Assembly (NCBI GenBank): GCA_036504215.1
Contig: DASXVO010000079.1
Coordinates: forward strand, 1-64,000
DNA length: 64,000 bases
Source: Vicinamibacterales bacterium
GTDB taxonomy: Bacteria; Acidobacteriota; Vicinamibacteria; Vicinamibacterales; Fen-181
Reading direction: 5' to 3'
In this document: positions 1-27,532 of the stretch, piece after piece
Position numbering within the stretch: the stretch's first letter is position 1
Layout: each line of letters begins with the position of its first letter
The notes under the pieces: model-generated
Database searches by the model: none
Told to the model about the DNA's origin: nothing
What the model saw: only the letters and a program-made list of their open reading frames with translations
Translations under genes and position numbers: made by a program

Positions 1-515
1 TGGTTGAGGATGTCCGGCCGCGCATCGAGCACGGTGCGGAGCGGTTCCTCCTTGCCCTGGAAGTCGGGGATCAACACCTCAATCCGGCAGTCGGGCCGGC
101 GGCGTCGAATCCCGGCGATCGTCTCGGCGAAGATCGACGCCCCGCCGTCCGCCAGGTCGTCGCGGTCAACCGAGGTGATGACCACGTAGCGCAGCCGCAT
201 CTCGTCGACGGCGTTCGCCACCCGCTCGGGTTCGGCCGTGTCGAGGCCGGCCGGACGGCCGTGCGCCACCGCGCAATACGGACAGTTGCGCGTGCACACG
301 TCACCGAGAATCATGAACGTCGCGGTACCGTGGTGCCAGCACTCGCCGATGTTCGGGCAGTGCGCTTCCTCGCAGACGGTATTGAGATGGAGTTCGCCCA
401 TCAGCCGCTTCAGCCGAAGGTAGCTCGGTGACCCGGGCGCTTTGACCTTGAGCCACGCAGGCTTCGCTTCGCGGTGTCGGACGAGGACCAGCGGGTTCTC
501 TATGGACGTGGACAT
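1..515 (-). CDS. lipA: Lipoyl synthase (3' part outside window)
   Basis: Radical-SAM enzyme that inserts two sulfurs into protein-bound octanoyl groups to make lipoate for the 2-oxoacid dehydrogenases and the glycine cleavage system. The gene runs off the left edge; 171 N-terminal residues are visible. They carry the auxiliary-cluster motif CEEAHCPNIGEC (C48, C53, C59) and the radical-SAM motif CTRNCPYC (C74, C78, C81), at the positions expected in LipA. The ATG at 515 fits the family's N-terminus, followed by a PAWLKVKAPGSPSYLRLK stretch. A TATTAT -10-like hexamer lies at 535-540 on the minus strand without a convincing -35. The upstream neighbour at 612 is divergent. Confidence 0.96.
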   Translation of the reverse strand, partial: MSTSIENPLVLVRHREAKPAWLKVKAPGSPSYLRLKRLMGELHLNTVCEEAHCPNIGECWHHGTATFMILGDVCTRNCPYCAVAHGRPAGLDTAEPERVANAVDEMRLRYVVITSVDRDDLADGGASIFAETIAGIRRRRPDCRIEVLIPDFQGKEEPLRTVLDARPDILN

Positions 516-611
516 ACCAGGTGATTACCTTCTAATAATAGCAGACGCGGTTCCGAAGACCAGACGGACCGCACCGACGACCACATCGCTGATTCCGGGA
601 GGAGTGTTCGA

Positions 612-1343
612 ATGACGGCGCCACGTCTCTCCGCCACATGGCTCGGCCACGGCACCTTCGTGCTCGAGTCCGAAGAAGGACGGCAGATCCTGCTCGACCC
701 CTGGATCGAGACCAACCCCGCCTGCCCCGCGAGCTGGAAGGGGGGTGGGTGGCAGAAACAGCTGGGCGCGCTCGATCTGATCCTTGTCACGCACGGTCAC
801 TCCGACCATAGCGCTGACGCGTTGCCGGTCGCCAAGGCCACCGGGGCGCCCGTCGTGTCGGTGTACGAGATCTGCAGCTGGCTGAAGGCCAAGGGCGCAC
901 CTGCCGTGAGCGGAATGAACAAGGGCGGCACGCAGGAGATCGCGGGGCTGCGCGTGACCCACGTGCACGCGGACCACAGCAGTACCTGCGAGGAACGCGG
1001 ACAGATCATCGCACTGGGCGAGCCGGGCGGCTTTGTCATCGCCTTCACGAATGGCGCGACGGTGTACTTCGCCGGCGACACGGCGCTCTTCGGCGACATG
1101 GCCCTCATCAAAGAGCTCCACGAGCCGACGCTCGCGTTTCTGCCGATCGGCGATCACTTCACCATGGGGCCGAAGGCAGCGGCCGCGGCGTGCCGGCTGC
1201 TCGGCGTGCGCCAGGTCGTGCCGATGCACTACGGAACGTTTCCGGTGCTGACCGGAACACCGGCCGAGCTGCGCTCGCTGGTCGAGCCGGGCGTGAGGGT
1301 CACCGAACTCGAGGCCGGGCGGAAGACGGTGCTCACCGTCTGA
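612..1343 (+). CDS. UlaG-like metal-dependent hydrolase (UPF0173 family)
   Basis: Metallo-beta-lactamase-fold hydrolase of 243 residues, the usual length of the UPF0173/UlaG-like group. Metal ligands are visible: H61-x-H63-x-D65-H66 in THGHSDHSAD, a second histidine cluster HVHADH (117-122), the metal-bridging aspartate of FAGDTALFGD (D156) and a late MHYGTFP histidine. The substrate cannot be read from sequence; relatives are annotated as phosphodiesterases or lactonases. No signal peptide, so probably cytoplasmic. The start at 612 follows a strong GGGAGGAG ribosome site. It is divergent from lipA and convergent with the lipoprotein gene, 12 bases apart. Confidence 0.9.
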   Translation: MTAPRLSATWLGHGTFVLESEEGRQILLDPWIETNPACPASWKGGGWQKQLGALDLILVTHGHSDHSADALPVAKATGAPVVSVYEICSWLKAKGAPAVSGMNKGGTQEIAGLRVTHVHADHSSTCEERGQIIALGEPGGFVIAFTNGATVYFAGDTALFGDMALIKELHEPTLAFLPIGDHFTMGPKAAAAACRLLGVRQVVPMHYGTFPVLTGTPAELRSLVEPGVRVTELEAGRKTVLTV

Positions 1344-4272: not shown

Positions 4273-5823
4273 ATGAAATCCCGACACGCTTCTGTGTGGA
4301 GAGCCCTCATGACGCCTCGCACCAAGCTCGCTGTCGCGATCTTCGTGATCGTTCCCGCGCTGTCCCTGGTGCTGTTCGCCGCCGGAAAGCCCAGCGTGGC
4401 GACGGCAGCGCTGCAAGTGTCGCTGGCCGAAATCCTGTACGACCAGGCCGACTATCGGTCGGCCATGCGGATCTATCTCCGCGCGACCGAATGCGACGAT
4501 GCGAAGGTCCGCGACCGGGCCCGCGCGGGCACGATCCGGGCCGCGCTGCGCATCGCCGAATTCGGCATCGCGGCAACGCAGCTGTCGCCGCTTCGTGCGG
4601 GGAGTGCGGCCGACCCCGACGTCCTGGCCCTGGCCGGCGACACGCTGTGGGCCTCGGGCCGTTTCGACGAGGCCGAATCGGCCTATCGTGATTCCCTGGC
4701 GCTCGACGCGGCGAATGCCCGCGGGCACAACGGGATGGCGCGGGCGCTGGCGTCCAAGAGCCAGCTCGACGCCGCGCTCGACGAGGTCTACGCGGCGCTT
4801 CGCTCGACGCCCGGTGATCCGGAGCTGCAGCACACGCTGGGATCGGTACTCGAGCGGATGCGGCGGTACCCGGATGCGGTGGTTGCGTACGAGATCTTCA
4901 TGAACACGCTGCCGCACTCGGGACAGGCCGAGTCGGGGTGGTGGACACGCAACCACGTGGCGTTCCTCAAGTCCTTCAACGGCACCGTGCCGTTCGAGAT
5001 CGTGTCCCGCGACGACCGTCGTCGTCACGTGATCGACTTCCGCCTCGAGAACGGGAAGGTGATCGTGAAGGCGAGCGTCAACGGCAGCCGGCCGATGGAC
5101 TTCGCGATCGACACGGGTGCCGAGCAGACGGTCGTGACCGAGAAGACGGCCCGGAAGCTGGGGCTCCGGCCGATGCTCCAGACCCTGTCGGCAGGCGTGG
5201 GGCTGTACGGGATGCGCGGGCTGCTGGTCGGCAAGATTCAGGCGCTCGAGATCGGCACGCTGACCGTGAAGAACATTCCGTGCCTCATCAAGTCGCCTGC
5301 GCTCCGGGGATTGCCCGTGGACGAGACGAACGGGATCTCGCCGGTGGCCCTCGGGCTGTCGATGACCGTGGACTACAGGAACCGGCGCCTGACGATCGGC
5401 GAGCCGGATTCCGTCGGTGACGGCATCGTTGCCGAGTTGCCGCTGCGACTCAATCGCCTGGCCACCGTCCGCGGCGACGTGAACGGGAATCCGGCCAGCT
5501 TCATCGTGGACACGGGCGGCGAGGCAATCTCGCTGAACGAAAGCACGGCGCGCGGGTTGTTCAAGCCGGACGATCGCCGGCGCATCAAGCTGCTGGTGTA
5601 CGGCGCTTCGGGGTGGGATCCCGACGCGTATCTGCTGCCCGGCGTCAACCTGGCCTTCGGCGACGTCACGCTCGCCAACCAGCCGGTGATGGTGCTGAAC
5701 CTGCGCGCGCCGAGCGTGCTGCTCGGCTACGAAATCGGCGGGATCGTCGGCTATCGGTTCCTGAGCAAGTACCGCGTAGAGTTCGACCTGAAGCAGAGTC
5801 TGCTCCGCCTGCGCACGCTCTGA
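4273..5823 (+). CDS. TPR protein with two retropepsin-like aspartyl protease domains
   Basis: A 516-residue protein with an N-terminal hydrophobic segment (about 18-40; signal or anchor), TPR-like helices (about 45-230) and two tandem retropepsin-like domains. The catalytic motifs are FAIDTGAE (D280) and FIVDTGGE (D413). Retropepsins normally dimerise so that two Asp-Thr-Gly loops make one site; here two copies in one chain could form an internal pseudo-dimer, as in pepsin. The TPR part may position a protein substrate or partner. ATG 4309 is an alternative start that keeps the signal segment. It overlaps the next gene as TGATG, implying translational coupling. Confidence 0.82.
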   Translation: MKSRHASVWRALMTPRTKLAVAIFVIVPALSLVLFAAGKPSVATAALQVSLAEILYDQADYRSAMRIYLRATECDDAKVRDRARAGTIRAALRIAEFGIAATQLSPLRAGSAADPDVLALAGDTLWASGRFDEAESAYRDSLALDAANARGHNGMARALASKSQLDAALDEVYAALRSTPGDPELQHTLGSVLERMRRYPDAVVAYEIFMNTLPHSGQAESGWWTRNHVAFLKSFNGTVPFEIVSRDDRRRHVIDFRLENGKVIVKASVNGSRPMDFAIDTGAEQTVVTEKTARKLGLRPMLQTLSAGVGLYGMRGLLVGKIQALEIGTLTVKNIPCLIKSPALRGLPVDETNGISPVALGLSMTVDYRNRRLTIGEPDSVGDGIVAELPLRLNRLATVRGDVNGNPASFIVDTGGEAISLNESTARGLFKPDDRRRIKLLVYGASGWDPDAYLLPGVNLAFGDVTLANQPVMVLNLRAPSVLLGYEIGGIVGYRFLSKYRVEFDLKQSLLRLRTL

Positions 5824-6686
5824 TGCCCGCCTGTTTCTTCGCGTCCGATTTGCACGGCCGCATACGGCGCTACAACTCGCTCATCGGGGCGATCGAGGCC
5901 GAACGGCCGGCTGGCGTGTTCCTCGGCGGCGACCTCCTGCCGTCCGGCTTCGGCATGGCCGGGTCCGTCGACCCGGATCACCTGGACTTCATCAACGGCT
6001 TTCTGGCCCCGCAGCTCGAGCGACTTCACTCCGTTCTTGGCCGCGACTATCCGGACATCTTCGTTATCCTGGGGAACGACGACCCGAGGGCTGAGGAAGC
6101 GGCTGTGCTGGATGCGGCCGCGCGCGGCGTGTGGCACTACGTTCACGATTGTCGAGTGGAGTGGCGGACCTTCGACGTCTACGGCTACGCCTGCGTGCCG
6201 CCCACGCCGTTTCGACTGAAGGACTGGGAGCGGTACGACGTGTCGCGGTTCGTCGATCCGGGCTGCCTGTCGCCCGAGGAAGGGTGGCGCAGCATCCCGG
6301 TGCCGGACCACGTCGTGCGCTACGGGACGATCCAGGGGGATCTCGAACTCCTCGTCGGGGATCGCCCCGTGGACCGCGCGATCATGCTGTTCCACTCTCC
6401 GCCGTACAAGACCGTTCTCGACCGCGCGGCGCTCGACGGGGTCACGGTCGACTACGCCCCGGTGGACGTGCACGTCGGCAGCATCGCCGTGCAGCGGTTC
6501 CTCGAGCGGCGCCAGCCGCTGGTAACGCTGCACGGGCACGTGCACGAGTCTGCCCGACTGACCGGGGAGTGGCGGACACGACTCGGAGAGACGCAGGCCT
6601 TCTCGGCCGCTCACGACGGTCCGGAACTGGCGCTCGTGAGATTCGACCCCGAGCACGCCGCGGCCGCCACGCGGGAACTGATCTAG
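5823..6686 (+). CDS. Metallophosphoesterase, calcineurin-like
   Basis: A 287-residue phosphoesterase. The five metal-site motifs of the calcineurin-like superfamily are visible in order: ASDLHG (D9, H11), GGDLLP (D37), GNDDP, a histidine in FHSPPYKT, and HGHVHES near the C-terminus. The second-motif histidine of GNHE is replaced by Asp (GNDD), as in several small bacterial branches. The substrate cannot be inferred. The ATG overlaps the stop of the protease gene (TGATG). Its stop codon overlaps that of the convergent PEP-binding gene in a CTAG. Confidence 0.88.
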   Translation: MPACFFASDLHGRIRRYNSLIGAIEAERPAGVFLGGDLLPSGFGMAGSVDPDHLDFINGFLAPQLERLHSVLGRDYPDIFVILGNDDPRAEEAAVLDAAARGVWHYVHDCRVEWRTFDVYGYACVPPTPFRLKDWERYDVSRFVDPGCLSPEEGWRSIPVPDHVVRYGTIQGDLELLVGDRPVDRAIMLFHSPPYKTVLDRAALDGVTVDYAPVDVHVGSIAVQRFLERRQPLVTLHGHVHESARLTGEWRTRLGETQAFSAAHDGPELALVRFDPEHAAAATRELI

Positions 6687-9600
6687 ACCGTCGCCCCCTG
6701 GAGCGGCAGGGCCCGCGCCGGATCGGTGATGGCCCCGATCTTCGACGCGAAGCTCGAGTGGTTCGCGAAGTCGGCATCGGTCACGATCTTCACGTCCAGG
6801 AGCCCTTCCGTCTTGTAGCCCGTGCGCAGGTAGTTCATCTCGCTGAGGCAGAGACTCCAGCCCTCGAGCCACGGTTCCAGCACGCGCCGCTTCTCGTCGT
6901 TGTCCTCGATGTGGACGATGAGATCGATGTCGCTGCCCGGTCCGGCCGTCGCGTTCTTCGTGCTGCCGAAGACGTACATGCCCTTGATGCCGAAGCGTGC
7001 CGGATCGGCCTCGAGCGCGATGTGCTCGACCATGCGCAGGCGCCACCGCCAGTGGTCCTCGGTCAGTTGATGCGTGTCGGCCCGCCGCTCGGGCGGGGCG
7101 CCCTGGGCGAGCGTTGGCGGAGCGAAGAAGGCGACCGCCTCGTCGAGGTCGGCGTTCATCAGCACCTGCAGGATGAGGCCCTCCGTGGCCTTCGAGACAT
7201 CCACGACGCGCACCGTCTGAGCCAGGTGGGCGTACTCGGGCACCAACTCCGCCATGATGTTCGGGGACCGTCGAAGGAACATCTCGTTCAACATCTCGCC
7301 GTCGTCGCCGGGGAAGAGCGGGAGGTAGCGGATGCTCGCTTCCACGAGGTCCTGGAAGAAGTGCGTGCCGAACGACACGTCGGGCACGTAGTTGCCCTTC
7401 TTGGCGGCAATCTCCATCAGCATCGCGGTGTTGTTGATGTCCGAGTAGGTGACGCTCACGCCGAGCTTGATGTCGCCCCGGCTGCCCCAGCGCCCGGGGC
7501 CCATGAGGATGAACTGCCGCTTGGGCAGCAGCTTGTTGAGCCGGCCGATGACGCGGCCGACGTCCTTCAAGTCCGTGAGGTTCTCGACCTGGTCGTACTC
7601 GTCGGGATCGACGTAGACGACGTGCGTGATGTCCGGCACGCGACCGTTGGAGACGTACTTGTTCGCCGAGAAGAGGACGCGTTCGAACGGCAGGTCGCGC
7701 GGAATGGCTGACGGTGTCGCGTCCCGCGAGAAGCTCTGAGGCCGGCACTGGAGCAGGTACAGATCCTTGCCGTCCGAGGCGAACTCGATGTCGACCGGTG
7801 ATCCAATCCGCTCGCGCAGCAGCTTGAGCAGCGCCTTCATCCGCGCCATGAACGGCGTGCTGCTCACCAGGCCGTCGAACGTGACCACGGTGTGCGACTC
7901 GGCCGGGTCCCATCCGAAGCCGACGGGCCGATGGATGCCCTCGCTGTCGTACACCGAGGCGATCAGCTCGAGGGCGGGGTACTCGCGGCCGTACTCGCGG
8001 AACAGGTCCCCGGCGTCCACGGTCTCGAAGCGCCGCGTCTCCAGGTTGATGACGTCGATCTTCCGAGGAGCGTACCGCAGGATCTCCTCGGGCCGGACGT
8101 TGACGCGCAGCCCGGGCTGTCCCGGTGCGACGAGGATCGGATAGTCGTCACCGACGCGATCGACCGCGCGCGTGCCGAGGCCGGGCACCAGACGGACGAG
8201 GCCGTCCTCGCGTTTGATGCGCGGCGACCACCGGAATTCGTTGTGACTGAAGGCGACGCCGGCGAACGACGGCATGAAGTACGGGCCGACGCGCGTGCCC
8301 ACGACCTCCTGGATCATGATGCCCATCTCTTCGTGCAGGTCGAGGAGATTGCGTTCGGCGCGGTACTCGATCGGGTCCGCGCCGAAGAGCGACGCATAGA
8401 CCTCCGCGATCGCGTCCATGAGCGCGCTCAGACGTTCGCCCTTCGTGCCGACGTTGGCCAGGAAGAGGCTCTTGTACTTGCCTGAGAACGCCGCGCCCAT
8501 CCGATCCTCGAGCAGGCTGGAACTGCGGACGATGAGCGGCTTGCCTTCGAGATCGTCGAGGGCCAGCGACAGCCCCTTCATGATCTCCGGCGCGAACCGC
8601 GAGTTCTTGAACACCTGGACGATGTGCGGGTACTCGCGCCGAATCTGCTCGATCTCGAGGTACTTCCGGTTGTAGACGTCCTCGAGCTGGTTGTACTCGA
8701 CGAAGCTCATGAGGCCGTCGGACGCGATGTACCACGTCTTCGGCACCTTGATGCTGCTCAGCAGTTCGGAGTATTCGCTGCACTTCCGGATGATCTGCGA
8801 GGCGAGCAGCATGCCGGCGCTCTTGCCTCCCAGCTTGCCGTGACTGGCGGGGGGGCTGATGATGTGGTTGACCAGCTCGTAGAAATCGCCTATCTCGATG
8901 TAGTTCTTGGCGGTGTTGATGAACTCGAGATCCTCGGTGAAGAACCGGCGGGCGAGCGACACGCGCAGGCCGATCTGAACCGACAGCGAGAGTTCTTCGT
9001 CCTCGACGGCGAGCTGGTGGTACCGCTCGAGCGCCTGGCCGATGTCGGTGAGCGACGTGCACTGGTTCTCGACCGCTTCAACGAGGAACCCGGTCTTGTC
9101 GTCCTTGATCCACTTCTGGATGCACGAGACGATCTCACCCTCGCTCAGGTGCGAGGCGGCGATGCGGAAGGCGTCCTCCGTGAGCGCCAGCAGGTCCTCG
9201 ATGCTCTTCTTCCGCAGCGGGATGTTGTCCTCGAACCCATCGGACTGCTGCGTGAAGTCCGCGGCGAAGCGGTGCAGCAACTGCTGTGCCTCGTCGATGC
9301 CGTTCCAGCACAGGTAGTTCAGCATGCGGCGCGAGATCCGCATCAGCAGGTGCTGGTCGGTCTTCCGCAGGAACTCGATGATGACCCACCACTCGCGCTT
9401 CTCGGGTGAGGCGAGGTTCTCGATCGCCGACTGCCAGTTGCGGAGCGTGGTCTGCAGCTGTCGCTGCATCAGGAAGTGCGCGAGGCGCTCGGCAATCGTG
9501 TCGATCAGCTTCCGTTCTTCCTTGAGGAACGGCCCCTCGTCGGCGCGCGGCATCTGACGCGTGTAGAACATCTCGATGCTGCCGACCTTCTCGCCTTGCA

Positions 9601-9865
9601 CGATCACGTCCGCGCGCAGCGCCCACGGCGTCTCGGTCACGCGCGGCAGCTGATACACCTGGCTCTCCAGGGTGATCTTCGCCCAGCACACGCTCGGGTA
9701 CTGCCAGCCGCCCGGCAACACGTCCAGCAGCCGCCGGCACACGTCGTCCACCGACGCGTCAGCCTGGTTGATCAGTTCGTGAACCTTGTAGAGCGTGTGC
9801 AGTTCCTTCGCACGCTCCTGCAGTTGCTCGATGATGTTGTTGACGGGCTGATTGCCGGGGTTCAT
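6683..9865 (-). CDS. GAF - PEP/pyruvate-binding - nucleotidyltransferase fusion
   Basis: A 1060-residue multidomain protein. Residues about 10-145 resemble a GAF-type sensor found in histidine kinases (KELHTLYKVHELI through DEGPFLKEERKLI). About 145-340 is a helical region of unknown type. About 345-690 is a PEP-synthase/PPDK N-terminal nucleotide-binding (ATP-grasp) domain, with KLGGKSAGM, PLIVRSSSLLEDRMG and DIEFASDGKDLYLLQCRPQS. About 700-930 is a module with GPGRWGSRGD and SFGTHFFQDL motifs shared with the upstream gene product. About 930-1050 is a DNA-polymerase-beta-type nucleotidyltransferase (VFGS..., GSDIDL and a later LDVKIV aspartate). No phosphohistidine swivel or PEP-binding barrel was seen. 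The ATG at 9865 starts 10 bases after the upstream stop. Confidence 0.88.
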   Translation of the reverse strand: MNPGNQPVNNIIEQLQERAKELHTLYKVHELINQADASVDDVCRRLLDVLPGGWQYPSVCWAKITLESQVYQLPRVTETPWALRADVIVQGEKVGSIEMFYTRQMPRADEGPFLKEERKLIDTIAERLAHFLMQRQLQTTLRNWQSAIENLASPEKREWWVIIEFLRKTDQHLLMRISRRMLNYLCWNGIDEAQQLLHRFAADFTQQSDGFEDNIPLRKKSIEDLLALTEDAFRIAASHLSEGEIVSCIQKWIKDDKTGFLVEAVENQCTSLTDIGQALERYHQLAVEDEELSLSVQIGLRVSLARRFFTEDLEFINTAKNYIEIGDFYELVNHIISPPASHGKLGGKSAGMLLASQIIRKCSEYSELLSSIKVPKTWYIASDGLMSFVEYNQLEDVYNRKYLEIEQIRREYPHIVQVFKNSRFAPEIMKGLSLALDDLEGKPLIVRSSSLLEDRMGAAFSGKYKSLFLANVGTKGERLSALMDAIAEVYASLFGADPIEYRAERNLLDLHEEMGIMIQEVVGTRVGPYFMPSFAGVAFSHNEFRWSPRIKREDGLVRLVPGLGTRAVDRVGDDYPILVAPGQPGLRVNVRPEEILRYAPRKIDVINLETRRFETVDAGDLFREYGREYPALELIASVYDSEGIHRPVGFGWDPAESHTVVTFDGLVSSTPFMARMKALLKLLRERIGSPVDIEFASDGKDLYLLQCRPQSFSRDATPSAIPRDLPFERVLFSANKYVSNGRVPDITHVVYVDPDEYDQVENLTDLKDVGRVIGRLNKLLPKRQFILMGPGRWGSRGDIKLGVSVTYSDINNTAMLMEIAAKKGNYVPDVSFGTHFFQDLVEASIRYLPLFPGDDGEMLNEMFLRRSPNIMAELVPEYAHLAQTVRVVDVSKATEGLILQVLMNADLDEAVAFFAPPTLAQGAPPERRADTHQLTEDHWRWRLRMVEHIALEADPARFGIKGMYVFGSTKNATAGPGSDIDLIVHIEDNDEKRRVLEPWLEGWSLCLSEMNYLRTGYKTEGLLDVKIVTDADFANHSSFASKIGAITDPARALPLQGATV

Positions 9866-9875
9866 GAGTGTGGCG

Positions 9876-11642
9876 TCACTCCCTGACGCGGGATTCCCAA
9901 AGGACGACTCCGTGCCCCGTCCGGCCGTCCACCTCGACCCGAAGGGGACGCGGCACGCGAACGTGGCGGACGAACGCGGTCTCGGCAACCGCCGGCAGAC
10001 GCGACAGACCGTCCCAGTCGATCGCGAACGGGCCGTCGAACGCGACCGAGAAGTAGCTGACGTTGAAGCTGGAGATGTTGTGGAAGAAGTGCGAGCCCTG
10101 GCTGAGATCCACGTTCATCGACGGCAGCGTGGCCTCGACGATCGCACGCGCCCCGCCGATCTGCGACCAGGCCACGGGGATGCCCAGCCACGGGTCCGAA
10201 CTGCCCCAGCGCCCGAATCCGAGGAGCAGGTACGGGGTGCCCTGGTCGATGAGCCGCAGGTTGAGGTGCGCGATGTCCTCCGCGATGGCCGGCGTGTGCC
10301 TGGTCTCGAACGCGTCAGGCCGGACATAGACGATGTCCTGGATGTCGGTGAGGATGCCGTTGCCCATCACCCGATCGGAGGCGAGCAGCACGTGGGAGCG
10401 GTCGACGGCGTCGAGATCGACGTTCACGACCGTGTCGGACACCGACATCGGCCGGACCTGCAGGAAGCCGAACCGCGCGGGGCCATCCTCGTCCTCGGCG
10501 GGGAAGGTGACGGCGAACTCGATTTCCACCGGCGCGCCCAGGGCGTCCTGGCAGAGACAGAGCATCGCCTTGAGCAGCGCGTTCAACCCGTACTCCTCGA
10601 GCACGAGCAGCGGCGCGAAGTTCAGCACGCGGGGGCCGCGGATGCCAACCCCCATCGACATCCGATCCGACCGCGCGTCGTAGGTCGAGGCCAGGTACCG
10701 GAGGGTGCCGTCCTCGTCGGCGTCGGGGAGGGACCCGTGGACCAGGTACTCGGCTTCGGTCAGCGGATCGTACGCCGCGGGCCGTCCCATGTTCACCGCC
10801 CAGAACTGCACCTGCGTCTGCTTCAGTAGTTCGCCGACCGACCCGTACGGCGGCGTGGCCTGCGGGTACGCCGGCGAGTAGCTCCAGGTGATGCCCCCGT
10901 CCACGATGCTCTTCCCGAGGCCGAGCGCGAGATTGACGACGCCGTCCTCGGGCCGCGTGCGGCCGCTCCGGTAGAAGCTGTAGGAGCGCGCCACGCCCGA
11001 CAGTTCGGGGTAGAACAGGTCGCGGTGGCGGCGGCCGACGATCGCCTGGAGGATCACCGCCATCCGGTCGTCCGAGCCGTGCCCCGTGAGGCGCCGGTAG
11101 TTGCGCGCGTTGGCGAAGAACGTCGAGGCGTAGACGAACTTGATCGCCTCGACCAGACGATGGAACCGTGATTCGACATCGTGCTGGTTGTTCGGGATCA
11201 TCTTCGTCGCGTAGACGCCCGCGAACGGCTGGTGAAGCGCATCCTCGAGCAGGCTCGACGAGCGGACCGCGAGCGGCGTGTGGACCTGCCGGATGAGCGC
11301 CCACAGGTCGCCGACCAGTTCGGTCGGCAGGGCGGCGGCGAGGAACGCGGCCGCGATCCGATGATCGGGCTCGCCAGACGTCGCCAGGTCCCAGAGCTGG
11401 TTCTCGGCCATGAACGTCTCGAAGACATCCGTGGCCACCACGGTCAGCGTTGGCACGGTGACGTCGAAGTGCCGTCGCGCCCGTTCATCGAGACGCGTCG
11501 CGAGCATGTCCTTGACGGAGAGCAGGCTGTGGGCCTTGCCGCCGTACTCGCCGCTGCCGATGCACGTGAACTGCTCGCTGCCGTCGAAGAAACGGCGATC
11601 GAACCGAGGGACGGCTGGTCGGGTATGCAGGCTGTTGGGCAT
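9876..11642 (-). CDS. PEP/pyruvate-binding domain protein (paralogue of downstream gene)
   Basis: A 588-residue protein with a PEP-synthase-like N-terminal nucleotide-binding domain: GSGEYGGKAHSL (about 30-41), TPLAVRSSSLLEDALHQPFAG (about 120), and VEIEFAVTF...FLQVRP (about 385). A C-terminal module follows with GFGRWGSSDPWLG and QGSHFFHNI. The same module occurs in the downstream protein, so the two are paralogues, but this one lacks the GAF and nucleotidyltransferase domains. No catalytic swivel histidine or PEP barrel is present, so neither looks like a complete PEP synthase. It is first gene of a two-gene unit; glutamate dehydrogenase lies upstream on the same strand, separated by a candidate terminator. 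Confidence 0.85.
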   Translation of the reverse strand: MPNSLHTRPAVPRFDRRFFDGSEQFTCIGSGEYGGKAHSLLSVKDMLATRLDERARRHFDVTVPTLTVVATDVFETFMAENQLWDLATSGEPDHRIAAAFLAAALPTELVGDLWALIRQVHTPLAVRSSSLLEDALHQPFAGVYATKMIPNNQHDVESRFHRLVEAIKFVYASTFFANARNYRRLTGHGSDDRMAVILQAIVGRRHRDLFYPELSGVARSYSFYRSGRTRPEDGVVNLALGLGKSIVDGGITWSYSPAYPQATPPYGSVGELLKQTQVQFWAVNMGRPAAYDPLTEAEYLVHGSLPDADEDGTLRYLASTYDARSDRMSMGVGIRGPRVLNFAPLLVLEEYGLNALLKAMLCLCQDALGAPVEIEFAVTFPAEDEDGPARFGFLQVRPMSVSDTVVNVDLDAVDRSHVLLASDRVMGNGILTDIQDIVYVRPDAFETRHTPAIAEDIAHLNLRLIDQGTPYLLLGFGRWGSSDPWLGIPVAWSQIGGARAIVEATLPSMNVDLSQGSHFFHNISSFNVSYFSVAFDGPFAIDWDGLSRLPAVAETAFVRHVRVPRPLRVEVDGRTGHGVVLWESRVRE

Positions 11643-11802: not shown

Positions 11803-11846
11803 CAGAGTGGGGCAAGGCGGGAAGGCGGCGGCAGACAAAGTAAGCA

Positions 11847-11868
11847 GGGCGGCCCTTTCGAGCCGCCC
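11847..11868 (-). terminator. Candidate terminator after gdhA
   Basis: GGGCGGC (11847-11853) and GCCGCCC (11862-11868) form a perfect 7-bp GC stem with an 8-base loop. On the minus strand it lies about 65 bases past the gdhA stop and is followed by a moderately T-rich TGCTTACTTTG. Plausible rho-independent terminator separating gdhA from the PEP-binding pair. Confidence 0.45.
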
Positions 11869-11879
11869 CATCGGTTCCG

Positions 11880-11934: not shown

Positions 11935-13221
<1,287 letters not shown>

Positions 13222-24097: not shown

Positions 24098-24139
24098 ATG
24101 GGCGTTCCCAATTGCTATACTGCCCCCCGGGAGACTGCC

Positions 24140-27100
24140 ATGACTGGTCGCCTGTCGATTGCCCTCGTGCTGCTCTCGCTGTCGATTCCGGCCTGGGCGG
24201 CCGTCCCCGGCGGTCGCGTCCGGCACGCGATGTCGGTCAGTCTCGATCCCGCCACGCACCAACTCGTGGTGACCGATACGATCCAACTTCCGCACGCGTG
24301 GGCGGGCGCGGTGGATTTCGTGCTGAGCGGCGCCCTGCATCTGACTCGGAGTGAGCCCGCGGCGCGCGAGGTTCCGCTCGGCCGGGACGCGACGTTGTTC
24401 GGCATCAACGGGACCAGCGAGGACCTCGGGCGTCAGGCCCAGGTGAAGCGATATCAGGTGACGCTCGCGCCCGGGCAGGCGACGCTGACGCTTTGTTACC
24501 GCGGCGCGATGGACTTCGGTCTCTCGGACGCGAAGGAGCAGTACACGCGCGGTTTCCGCACCACGGCGGGCATCGTCGGGCCCGAGGGCGTCTATCTGGC
24601 GGGCAGCAGTTTCTGGTATCCGGCGTTCAACGGGGACCTGGTCGAGTTCGACCTGGACGTCGCGCAACCGGCCGGCTGGCATGTCATCTCGCAGGGCCAT
24701 GGCACGTCACGTGACGACCGAGGTCGCGCACGCTGGGCCTCGGGCGGCGCCATGGACGAGATCGACCTGGTCGGCGGTCCGCTCCAGGTCTGGCGTGATT
24801 CGGCGGGCACCGTCGAGACTCTCGTCTACCTCCACGATCGCGATGACGCGCTGGCGGCCAAGTATCTTGCCGCGACGTCGCAATACCTCGAGATGTATCG
24901 CCAGTTGATTGGCCCGTATCCGTACCGCAAGTTCGCGCTCGTCGAGAACTTCTGGGAGACCGGTTACGGGATGCCGACCTTCGCGCTGCTCGGCAAGCAG
25001 ATCATCCGCTTCCCGTTCATCATCACCTCGTCCTACCCGCACGAGATCCTGCACAACTGGTGGGGCAACTCGGTCTTCGTGGACTACGAGAGCGGCAATT
25101 GGTGCGAGGGTATGACCGCGTACCTCGCCGACCATCTGATCCAGGAGCAGCGCGGGGCGGGCGACGAGTACCGACGTTCGACCCTCCAGAAGTACCGCGA
25201 CTACGTCAAGGCCGGCCGCGACTTCCCGCTCACCGCGTTCCGTTCACGCGAGAGTGCGTCGACCGAGGCGGTGGGCTACGGCAAGGCGCTGATGGCGTTC
25301 CACATGCTGCGGCTGTCGGTCGGCGATGACACGTTCCGCATGGCCATCGCGCGGCTCTATCGCGACTTCAACGGCAAGCGCGCGTCGTTTGCCGATGTCG
25401 AGAAGACGTTTGCCACCGTGAGTGGGCGCGACCTCGGCCGATTCTTCGGGGATTGGGTTGGGCGCGCAGGGGCGCCGACGCTCGCCGTCGACGTGACGCG
25501 TGCGGGTCCAGACGCCACCGCGTTCTCTGTCGAGGGGCGTCTCCGGCAGACCCAGCCGGGCGATCCGTTCGTCGTCGATGTGCCGGTCGTCGTGCAGACG
25601 ACCAAGGGCGTGGTCAGCGAGGTCGTCCATCTCGATCGCGCGGCGCGGGACTTCACGATCCGGTCCACCGACGCGCCGCTGATGGTGCACGTCGATCCGC
25701 GATTCGATGTCTTCCGCAAGCTCGATCCTCGCGAGACGCCGCCCTCGATCGGACAGATCTTCGGTGAACCCCGGGTGCTCGCGCTCCTCCCGTCGGGAGC
25801 GGCCCCCCAGGAACTCGAGGCCTGGCGGACGTTGCTCCAGGGTTGGCAGTCGGCAAGCCACGCCATCGAGATGAAGCGCGACATCGAGGTGACGACGCTG
25901 CCGCGGGATCGCGCGATCTGGGTGGTCGGGCGAGAGAACACGTGGGCGGGACGACTGTTCCGGACGCACGTAGGAATGGTGTCGAGCGAATCGGCGATCG
26001 AGGTGGATGGCGAGAAGATGGCGCTCGCGAATCATACGCTGGTGCTCGTCACGCGTCATCCGGACAACGTCGAGAAGGCCGTCGGCTGGCTGGCGGTCGA
26101 TCCGGCCGCCGCGTTCCCCGGTCTCGGCCGCAAGCTGCCGCACTACGGCAAGTACTCGTATCTCGGCTTCGAAGGCACCGAGCCGGTCAATGTGCTGAAG
26201 GGGCAATGGCAGGATTCGGATTCGCCGCTGCGCGTGGACGTGCGGAGGCTGGCGGGGCAGACGGCGGCCATCATGGCGCTGCCACCCGATCCCCGCAGGC
26301 CACTCGCCGAATTGCCGCCGGTCTTCTCCCAGAAGGACCTGCTGGCGCATGTCGCGTTCCTCGCCGATGCGGCGCCCGAGGGGCGCGGTCCCGGCAGCGG
26401 CGGGCACGAAGCGGCCGCGAAGTATATCGCCGAGCGCTTCAAGGCGTTCGGCCTCGCACCCGGCGGCGCCGACGGTTCGTACTTCCAGCCGTTCACCATG
26501 CCGATTGGAGGGCCGCGCGAGGAGAAGCGCGTGTCGAACGTCGTCGGGTACATTCCCGGCACGAAGATCGAGTGGAAGGATCAGGCCGTGCTCGTCACCG
26601 CGCACTATGACCACCTGGGTCTCGGCTGGCCGGATGTGCACAAGGGCGACGAGGGCAAGGTGCACCCCGGCGCCGACGACAACGCGAGCGGCGTGTCGGT
26701 GATGCTGGAACTGGCGCACACGCTGGCGGCCGGCGAGAAGCCGTCGCGCTCGGTCGTGTTCATCGCATTCACCGGCGAGGAAGCCGGCCTGGCCGGCTCG
26801 AAATACTACGCGGCTCACGCTGGACGTTTCCCGCTGCCGAAGACGATCGGTGTGATCAACCTCGACACCGTGGGTCGCCTGGGTGAGCAGAGACTGTCCG
26901 TCCTCGGAACCAGCACCGCCTCGGAATGGCAGCACATCTTCCGCGGCGCGAGCTTCGTCACCGGCGTGGAGAGCCGCAATGTGCCCGAATCCGTTCAGGC
27001 CTCCGATCAGGTGAGCTTCATCCAGCAGGGCGTGCCGGCCGTCCAGATATTCACGAGCGCACACGCCGACTACCATCGGCCCAGCGACACGCCGGACAAG

Positions 27101-27532
27101 ATCGACGGCCCCGGCCTCGTCAAGGTCGCCACATTCGTCCGCGAAGGCGTGGCCTATCTCGCGGAGCGGGCCGAACCGCTGACGAGCACGCTCGCTCCGG
27201 CCGGCGCGAGCGGCACCCAGACCCCGGCGGCGCCATCGGCCGCGACGGGCCCGGGCGCCCCAACTCCACGACGCGTGAGCTTCGGAACGGTCCCCGACTT
27301 CGCCTTCGAAGGCCCGGGAGTGAGAGTGAGCGGCCTGGTTCCAGGTTCGCCGGCGGAGAAGGCCGGCCTCCAGGTGGGAGACGTCGTCGCCGCCATCGAC
27401 GGGAGGCCGATCGCCAATCTCCAGGCGTTCTCGAACGCGCTTCGCACGCTCGGCGTCGGCCAGACGGTACGGGCGACCGTCATCCGCGGCGGCAAGGAGC
27501 TGGCGCTGTCAGTGACCCTGGCTGAACGGTGA
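24140..27532 (+). CDS. Fused M1 aminopeptidase - M28 peptidase - PDZ protein
   Basis: A 1130-residue exported protein with a signal peptide (about 1-20, ending AWA). The N-terminal half is an M1-type aminopeptidase-like domain with HEILHNWWGNS (H301, E302, H305) and a glutamate in NWCEGMTAYLADH (E323). The middle is an M28-type zinc peptidase (about 740-1030), with AHYDHLG (H822), GADDNASG, AFTGEEAGLAGS, a late aspartate (INLDTVG) and HADYHRPSDTPD. The C-terminal 90 residues form a PDZ domain (VSGLVPGSPAEKAGLQVGD). ATG 24140 is preferred over ATG 24098 because it starts the signal peptide and follows GGGAG. It lies 42 bases after the TonB receptor gene. Confidence 0.9.
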   Translation: MTGRLSIALVLLSLSIPAWAAVPGGRVRHAMSVSLDPATHQLVVTDTIQLPHAWAGAVDFVLSGALHLTRSEPAAREVPLGRDATLFGINGTSEDLGRQAQVKRYQVTLAPGQATLTLCYRGAMDFGLSDAKEQYTRGFRTTAGIVGPEGVYLAGSSFWYPAFNGDLVEFDLDVAQPAGWHVISQGHGTSRDDRGRARWASGGAMDEIDLVGGPLQVWRDSAGTVETLVYLHDRDDALAAKYLAATSQYLEMYRQLIGPYPYRKFALVENFWETGYGMPTFALLGKQIIRFPFIITSSYPHEILHNWWGNSVFVDYESGNWCEGMTAYLADHLIQEQRGAGDEYRRSTLQKYRDYVKAGRDFPLTAFRSRESASTEAVGYGKALMAFHMLRLSVGDDTFRMAIARLYRDFNGKRASFADVEKTFATVSGRDLGRFFGDWVGRAGAPTLAVDVTRAGPDATAFSVEGRLRQTQPGDPFVVDVPVVVQTTKGVVSEVVHLDRAARDFTIRSTDAPLMVHVDPRFDVFRKLDPRETPPSIGQIFGEPRVLALLPSGAAPQELEAWRTLLQGWQSASHAIEMKRDIEVTTLPRDRAIWVVGRENTWAGRLFRTHVGMVSSESAIEVDGEKMALANHTLVLVTRHPDNVEKAVGWLAVDPAAAFPGLGRKLPHYGKYSYLGFEGTEPVNVLKGQWQDSDSPLRVDVRRLAGQTAAIMALPPDPRRPLAELPPVFSQKDLLAHVAFLADAAPEGRGPGSGGHEAAAKYIAERFKAFGLAPGGADGSYFQPFTMPIGGPREEKRVSNVVGYIPGTKIEWKDQAVLVTAHYDHLGLGWPDVHKGDEGKVHPGADDNASGVSVMLELAHTLAAGEKPSRSVVFIAFTGEEAGLAGSKYYAAHAGRFPLPKTIGVINLDTVGRLGEQRLSVLGTSTASEWQHIFRGASFVTGVESRNVPESVQASDQVSFIQQGVPAVQIFTSAHADYHRPSDTPDKIDGPGLVKVATFVREGVAYLAERAEPLTSTLAPAGASGTQTPAAPSAATGPGAPTPRRVSFGTVPDFAFEGPGVRVSGLVPGSPAEKAGLQVGDVVAAIDGRPIANLQAFSNALRTLGVGQTVRATVIRGGKELALSVTLAER

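Follow-up and report, generated by a model that had tools for sequence, protein, structure and literature searches.

Two adjacent ATP-grasp genes linked to that of glutamate dehydrogenase: a probable, so far unrecognised regulatory system of bacterial nitrogen metabolism

VadK (Rv1127c) of Mycobacterium tuberculosis is composed of an ATP-grasp domain and a histidine domain without the phosphoenolpyruvate (PEP)/pyruvate barrel; it autophosphorylates on His422, binds methylcitrate-cycle enzymes and tunes their flux (PMC13400623). VadK is the closest tested precedent for the products of two adjacent genes, here called A and B, in a 64,000-nucleotide stretch of DNA (the window; contig DASXVO010000079.1, positions 1 to 64,000) from a Vicinamibacterales bacterium. 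Directly upstream of A, on the same strand, is the gene of a glutamate dehydrogenase (GDH), and the pair is probably an unrecognised control system for this central nitrogen-metabolism enzyme. The account that we lean towards, by a modest preference, is that A, B and a paralogue, C, are ATP-driven phosphohistidine regulators dedicated to GDH and similar to VadK. A literature search, confined for the most part to open-access papers, found no description of the system.

As far as the assignment of a swivel domain discussed below holds, A has the same two-part, barrel-less architecture as VadK, and both would be regulatory, VadK acting on metabolic enzymes through direct interaction. VadK differs in being actinobacterial and methylcitrate-linked and in having no GAF, receiver or nucleotidyltransferase (NTase) domain, and A scores 14 bits against a cut-off of 456 on the NCBIfam PPDK model PRK05878 (about 530 aa), which we take to represent the mycobacterial PPDK-like family, VadK's own. 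PEP synthase (PPS) and pyruvate phosphate dikinase (PPDK; PPS/PPDK, EC 2.7.9.1/2.7.9.2) share with A and B the PPDK_N domain with its conserved ATP-site residues and, in superposition, a swivel-type domain; A and B differ from them in lacking the PF02896 barrel, in an unrecognisable swivel sequence, in the addition of GAF and NTase domains and in the link to GDH. The best structural match of both proteins is rifampin phosphotransferase (RPH; Z about 25; PMC4844700), which likewise combines an ATP-grasp and a swivel domain and whose third domain is not a PEP barrel. The swivel domain of RPH (residues 767–865, with His825) is C-terminal. A and B have no rifampin-binding domain, and only a short stretch separates their ATP-grasp domain from the module that follows. 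The HpeHI/phenylphosphate-synthase-type dikinases (PMC12167813) are also two-gene PEP-synthase-like systems, but there the ATP-grasp and swivel domains are on separate proteins, whereas A and B each carry both. EI-Ntr (PtsP), whose GAF domain binds glutamine and represses autophosphorylation (PMC4848567), resembles B in its connection with nitrogen metabolism and in having the GAF domain upstream of a phosphohistidine swivel-type domain; it is charged by PEP via its barrel, whereas B would be charged by ATP via the ATP-grasp domain, and no HPr-like partner was seen beside B. GlnE/GlnD and MntA share with B a minimal NTase with GS...DxD motifs, and GlnE/GlnD control a nitrogen enzyme; however, in B the NTase is an appendage, which many of the homologues linked to GDH do without, and the gene linked to B is that of GDH, whereas GlnE/GlnD act on glutamine synthetase or PII. 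New with respect to the known PPDK-derived regulatory dikinases are thus the coupling to GDH, the sensor fusions, the NTase and a swivel sequence invisible to profiles.

Among 84,980 species genomes scanned, 250 relatives of B were confirmed, and the best 80 (53–88% identical) were kept; having been picked by similarity to B, they represent one branch of a larger family. They are distributed over more than ten phyla, including Acidobacteriota, Planctomycetota, Ignavibacteriota, Bacteroidota, Calditrichota, Aminicenantes, Spirochaetota, Gemmatimonadota, Myxococcota, Eisenbacteria and Zixibacteria. A is found directly upstream of B in 45 of the 80, usually at a distance of about 30 bp, and GDH adjoins B or the A–B pair, usually at about 100 bp, in 52 of the 54 loci whose sequence extends 4 kb or more upstream of B (47 co-directional). 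No other neighbour is conserved across the relatives to a comparable degree. In the window, A and B are both on the minus strand with 10 bp between them, an arrangement that the first-pass annotation, made from the sequence of the window by itself, had described correctly; the gap of 292 bp between GDH and A is longer than in most relatives.

The linkage is accompanied by co-occurrence. In 60 genomes of Acidobacteriota, searched both ways and counted as B-positive at E ≤ 1e-100, a GDH at least 54% identical to that of the window is present in 17/17 B-positive and 0/43 B-negative genomes, the full-length GDH matches of the latter all being weaker, at about 48% or below. In the phylum of a Phycisphaerae relative (79 genomes), a GDH of at least 50% identity is present in nine of the ten B-positive and three of the 69 B-negative genomes, and B adjoins GDH in eight of the ten B-positive genomes on this Planctomycetota side. 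The Fisher p values, uncorrected for shared ancestry, are 2.6e-15 for Acidobacteriota and 1e-8 for the Planctomycetota side; B is almost never present without the B-linked type of GDH. Pairwise distances of GDH and B are correlated (r 0.68, 63 loci), and in the 36 loci with A the values are 0.88 for A–B, 0.81 for B–GDH and 0.68 for A–GDH. The B-linked GDHs form one clade across phyla (97/100 support), a grouping that was made by similarity and is consistent with the linkage rather than independent evidence for it.

Divergent homologues of B that have no NTase, or neither GAF domain nor NTase, mostly still adjoin GDH, so the conserved unit is the ATP-grasp domain together with the module. Paralogue C comprises an N-terminal receiver-like region (a weak PF00072 match, under the cut-off in the window's genome and above it in locus L025), a DUF5752-like stretch, PPDK_N and the module. 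In the window's genome, C starts about 70 bp after a second, distant GDH gene (34% identical; G000:C39, locus L187, 1809–7203), and both GDH genes found in the genome therefore have such a partner. In Parabacteroides distasonis (C-type gene UNS60_RS17425) and Phocaeicola massiliensis, a C-type gene is oriented divergently from a GDH gene, which in the former is annotated gdhA; in a Prevotella record, no such arrangement was seen within 5 kb. The P. distasonis record (NZ_OY725790.1, locus L196) is labelled a plasmid, yet carries ruvC, rapZ and two gdh genes, and looks chromosomal. Separately, two GDH-like frames downstream of a B homologue (L107, 9643–12301; L108, 4071–6729) have Met (GGSMGG, GGAMGG) at the position of the GGxKGG motif where known GDHs have their catalytic Lys; judged by this replacement, they are possibly catalytically dead GDH paralogues retained next to the regulator.

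The ATP-grasp domain of both proteins, predicted in the first-pass annotation as a PEP-synthase-type nucleotide-binding domain, is matched by PF01326 with 187.8 bits in A and 116.5 bits in B (Pfam cut-off 27). The ATP-site residues are invariant, in A (49 sequences) as K36, R127, E373, E375, Q395 and R397, and in B (74 sequences) as K348, R447, D692, E694, Q706 and R708, which we take to be equivalent to PPDK K22, R92, D321, E323, Q335 and R337. The absence of a PEP/pyruvate barrel, also noted at first pass, holds: PF02896 has no match in A or B at E ≤ 1, A stops after the module, and B goes on into the NTase in place of any barrel. Neither protein reaches the NCBIfam equivalog cut-offs for PPS/PPDK (best 55.6 bits against 739.75), and the rifampin phosphotransferase model NF041857 gives 30.8 bits against a cut-off of 999.

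The closest solved structures, RPH (Z 25) and HpeI (Z 18–19), are small-molecule phosphotransferases, two-component small-molecule dikinases are known (PMC12167813), and operons often group metabolic neighbours. These points would suit a dikinase acting on a small molecule from the GDH pathway, such as glutamate, 2-oxoglutarate or a related compound, much as RPH and HpeHI phosphorylate substrates of their own; the helical region of B would then be the substrate domain. We consider this unlikely, because A and C have no extra domain able to bind a substrate, homologues without the first 150 residues are still GDH-linked, and GAF and receiver-like fusions are a better match to regulation. Moreover, we know of no pathway in which the metabolites of the GDH pathway need ATP-dependent phosphorylation.

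Following the ATP-grasp domain in both proteins is the module with the motifs GRWGS and G[ST]HFF, confirmed as common to A and B by profile–profile comparison (hhalign, E 4e-24). The His of the second motif is invariant, as H835 in 74/74 B proteins and H518 in 49/49 A/C proteins. The swivel profile PF00391 has no match in A or B at E ≤ 1, a Pfam search restricted to the module (E ≤ 10) returned no match for A and, for B, a single weak one that looks like chance, and an hhalign comparison of the module with 27 swivel domains from relatives yielded neither a significant match nor a consistent register. A MAFFT alignment of A and B with PPS and PPDK placed GSHFF on the barrel motif GSND; it was not used, as the global alignment is poor in the ATP-grasp domain and the register is contradicted by the structural ranges.

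The fold of the module was approached through AlphaFold models of A (pLDDT 89, pTM 0.88) and B (pLDDT 82, pTM 0.66), superposed with VIA-align. The model of A aligns with PPS 2ols over 361 residues (13..584 to 4..467), with PPDK 1dik over 350 residues (24..584 to 8..511) and with RPH 5hv3 over 359 residues (23..546 to 7..851); that of B aligns with PPS over 366 residues (up to B 916/PPS 467), with PPDK over 355 residues (304..918 to 11..513) and with RPH over 371 residues (up to B 860/RPH 866). Chains or conformers in which the ATP-grasp domain alone is matched align over about 226–230 (PPDK) or 266–288 (RPH) residues, and the excess therefore places about 120 (PPDK) and about 80 (RPH) module residues on the swivel domains. 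In the model of A, the module has the order strand-strand-helix-strand-strand-helix-strand-strand-strand, and H518 opens the second helix; the catalytic His of swivel domains is likewise at the start of the second helix. On these models, the module is probably a highly divergent swivel phosphohistidine-type domain, in which H518 and H835 would correspond to the catalytic swivel His. The first-pass claim that neither protein has a swivel histidine domain is thus probably wrong: PF00391 is silent, but the module superposes on the swivel of PPDK, PPS and RPH, and structure prediction, proposed there as a check, probably does reveal such a domain at the level of the fold.

That no sequence profile ties the module to PF00391, and that it spans about 180 aa against about 100–125 for swivel domains, might instead indicate a new, non-swivel domain, receiving phosphate or merely binding GDH, past which the ATP-grasp domain hands phosphate directly to another acceptor, as proposed at first pass. 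Since both models continue beyond the ATP-grasp domain to end in the swivel domains, with agreeing strand and helix order and the invariant His opening the second helix, we regard such a domain as quite unlikely and retain the divergent swivel.

Three features overlooked at first pass are the GAF fold at the N terminus of B, the NTase at its C terminus and the GDH gene directly upstream of the pair. Residues 10–149 of the B model superpose on the GAF domain 3cit (Z 12.9, 126 aa at 2.5 Å, VIA-align), and GAF domains of PtsP are also matched (3trc, Z 10.7; 3ci6, Z 10.2). The helical region that follows (residues 158–332) has no Pfam match above cut-off. The GAF stretch of B recurs in neighbouring histidine kinases at two loci (L039, 479–2351; L050, 536–2379), where the kinase, the N terminus of which matches the GAF stretch with 77–82 bits, is followed by a response regulator gene. 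The presence of these genes beside the cluster, together with the receiver-like domain of C, could mean that the proteins share the nitrogen or redox response of GDH but act elsewhere, for example in a signalling branch towards transcription. We judge this quite improbable, as A, B and C have no DNA-binding output domain and their sole conserved neighbour is GDH, the enzyme to which the favoured account assigns them.

The C terminus of B matches NTP_transf_2 (PF01909; 29.3 bits against a cut-off of 21, residues 957–992), with G967, D979 and D1024 kept in 74/74 and S968 and D981 in 72/74 sequences, and the closest folds found by Foldseek are 2rff and MNT antitoxins. Despite this match, the conserved GS and DxD motifs (72–74 of 74) and the fact that MNT antitoxins AMPylate protein, it is very unlikely that B is a GlnE/GlnD-like enzyme that nucleotidylates GDH while its PPDK-like part merely senses ATP/AMP, because many of the B homologues linked to GDH stop near residue 920 and have no NTase, either of their own or encoded nearby, A and C have none, and the ATP-site residues and module His are kept in all.

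Taken together, the domains are in keeping with a phosphohistidine protein that is charged by ATP and has an input domain but no acceptor domain of its own, and the preferred mechanism would run as follows. The ATP-grasp domain would bind ATP, as its family and invariant residues suggest. The invariant His of G[ST]HFF, on the divergent swivel, would then take the phosphate as in PPDK and RPH, a step for which the fold comes from superposition of the predictions and for which we infer the chemistry and the residue match. Owing to the missing PEP/pyruvate barrel, the phosphate or phospho-state would serve in trans, with the adjoining GDH as the protein most likely to receive or use it; the genetic coupling is observed, and it makes GDH the most likely target of a presumed modification. 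A nitrogen, carbon or redox signal may set the activity through the GAF domain (in B) or the receiver-like domain (in C). Where B bears an NTase, this domain may attach a nucleotide to the same target or to A, or take one off, a step that would be dispensable because shorter, NTase-less homologues still adjoin GDH. As the extra module is most likely a phosphohistidine domain, the phosphate probably goes first to the invariant His of the proteins themselves, and the first-pass suggestion that the acceptor is another molecule or protein would apply to the final acceptor. Its preference for phosphotransfer or signalling over a metabolic enzyme gains support from the missing barrel, the sensor fusions and the tie to GDH, although its swivel-less premise is probably mistaken. 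A bolder version, which we put forward tentatively and hold to be possible rather than probable, is a cross-phylum, ATP-driven counterpart of the nitrogen phosphotransferase system (PTS), controlling GDH reversibly by phosphoryl and, in some lineages, nucleotide groups attached directly to GDH, with GAF, receiver and NTase as interchangeable modules.

Several points weigh against this account. The basis of the swivel assignment is a set of AlphaFold models with their alignment ranges, where sequence profiles fail, and gene linkage points to a shared process, which is less than proof of GDH as the substrate. Two Planctomycetota genomes (G275, locus L192; G250, locus L193) carry the B-linked type of GDH (72–73% identical) without adjoining A, B or C, which implies a GDH independent of B. 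A search for candidate acceptor sites, taken as columns that B-linked GDHs conserve and these two B-less ones have lost, gave H115 and D270. Residue 115, in the stretch CDPHNLS just after the catalytic GGGKGG loop, is His in 97% of the GDHs linked to B and Gln in the two without it; as R or P takes its place in two of the B-linked lineages, this most suggestive candidate acceptor serves as a lead only.

GDH links carbon and nitrogen metabolism, yet few cases are known in which a bacterial GDH is under dedicated control at the enzyme level. If the account is correct, it would explain many proteins annotated only as 'PEP/pyruvate-binding domain-containing', and PPDK-derived regulatory kinases such as VadK would be no mycobacterial oddity. 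It would also correct an annotation trap, that of a phosphohistidine-type domain invisible to every sequence profile. The C-type relative beside gdhA in cultured Parabacteroides opens the system to direct testing.

Table 1. Features of the GDH–A–B cluster in the window; domain assignments follow the basis given, and phosphohistidines are candidates.
Feature	Position	Strand	Basis or remark
GDH (ELFV dehydrogenase, 428 aa), first gene of conserved cluster	11935..13221	-	PF00208 231 bits, PF02812 181 bits
Gene A (588 aa): ATP-grasp and swivel-like domain	9876..11642	-	PF01326; AlphaFold pLDDT 89
A PPDK_N ATP-grasp, residues 33-404	10431..11546	-	PF01326
A GRWGS/GSHFF module, residues 405-585	9888..10430	-	Candidate phospho-His H518 at 10089-10091
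A–B gap, 10 bp	9866..9875	-	
Gene B (1060 aa, ATG at 9865): GAF, helical region, ATP-grasp, swivel-like domain, NTase	6683..9865	-	
B GAF sensor domain, residues 10-149	9419..9838	-	Structural alignment of model
B all-helical region, residues 158-332	8870..9394	-	Secondary structure of model
B PPDK_N ATP-grasp, residues 344-722	7700..8836	-	PF01326
B GRWGS/GTHFF module, residues 725-915	7121..7693	-	Candidate phospho-His H835 at 7361-7363
B minimal NTase, residues 938-1042; GS(967-968)...DxD(979-981)...D1024	6740..7054	-	PF01909

Between GDH and A is a minus-strand hairpin followed by a few T (11845–11870), of a kind no commoner than in shuffled sequence, and a promoter and terminator scan gave a signal at or below chance. 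A reading of the locus as a defence system was rejected, the PADLOC matches being short, low-scoring NTase and coil stretches. The stop codon of B overlaps, at 6683–6686, that of a convergent plus-strand frame encoding a calcineurin-like phosphoesterase (5613–6686). Further along the window, a plus-strand gene (24098–27532) encodes a large protein that combines a peptidase M28 domain with a PDZ domain at its C terminus.

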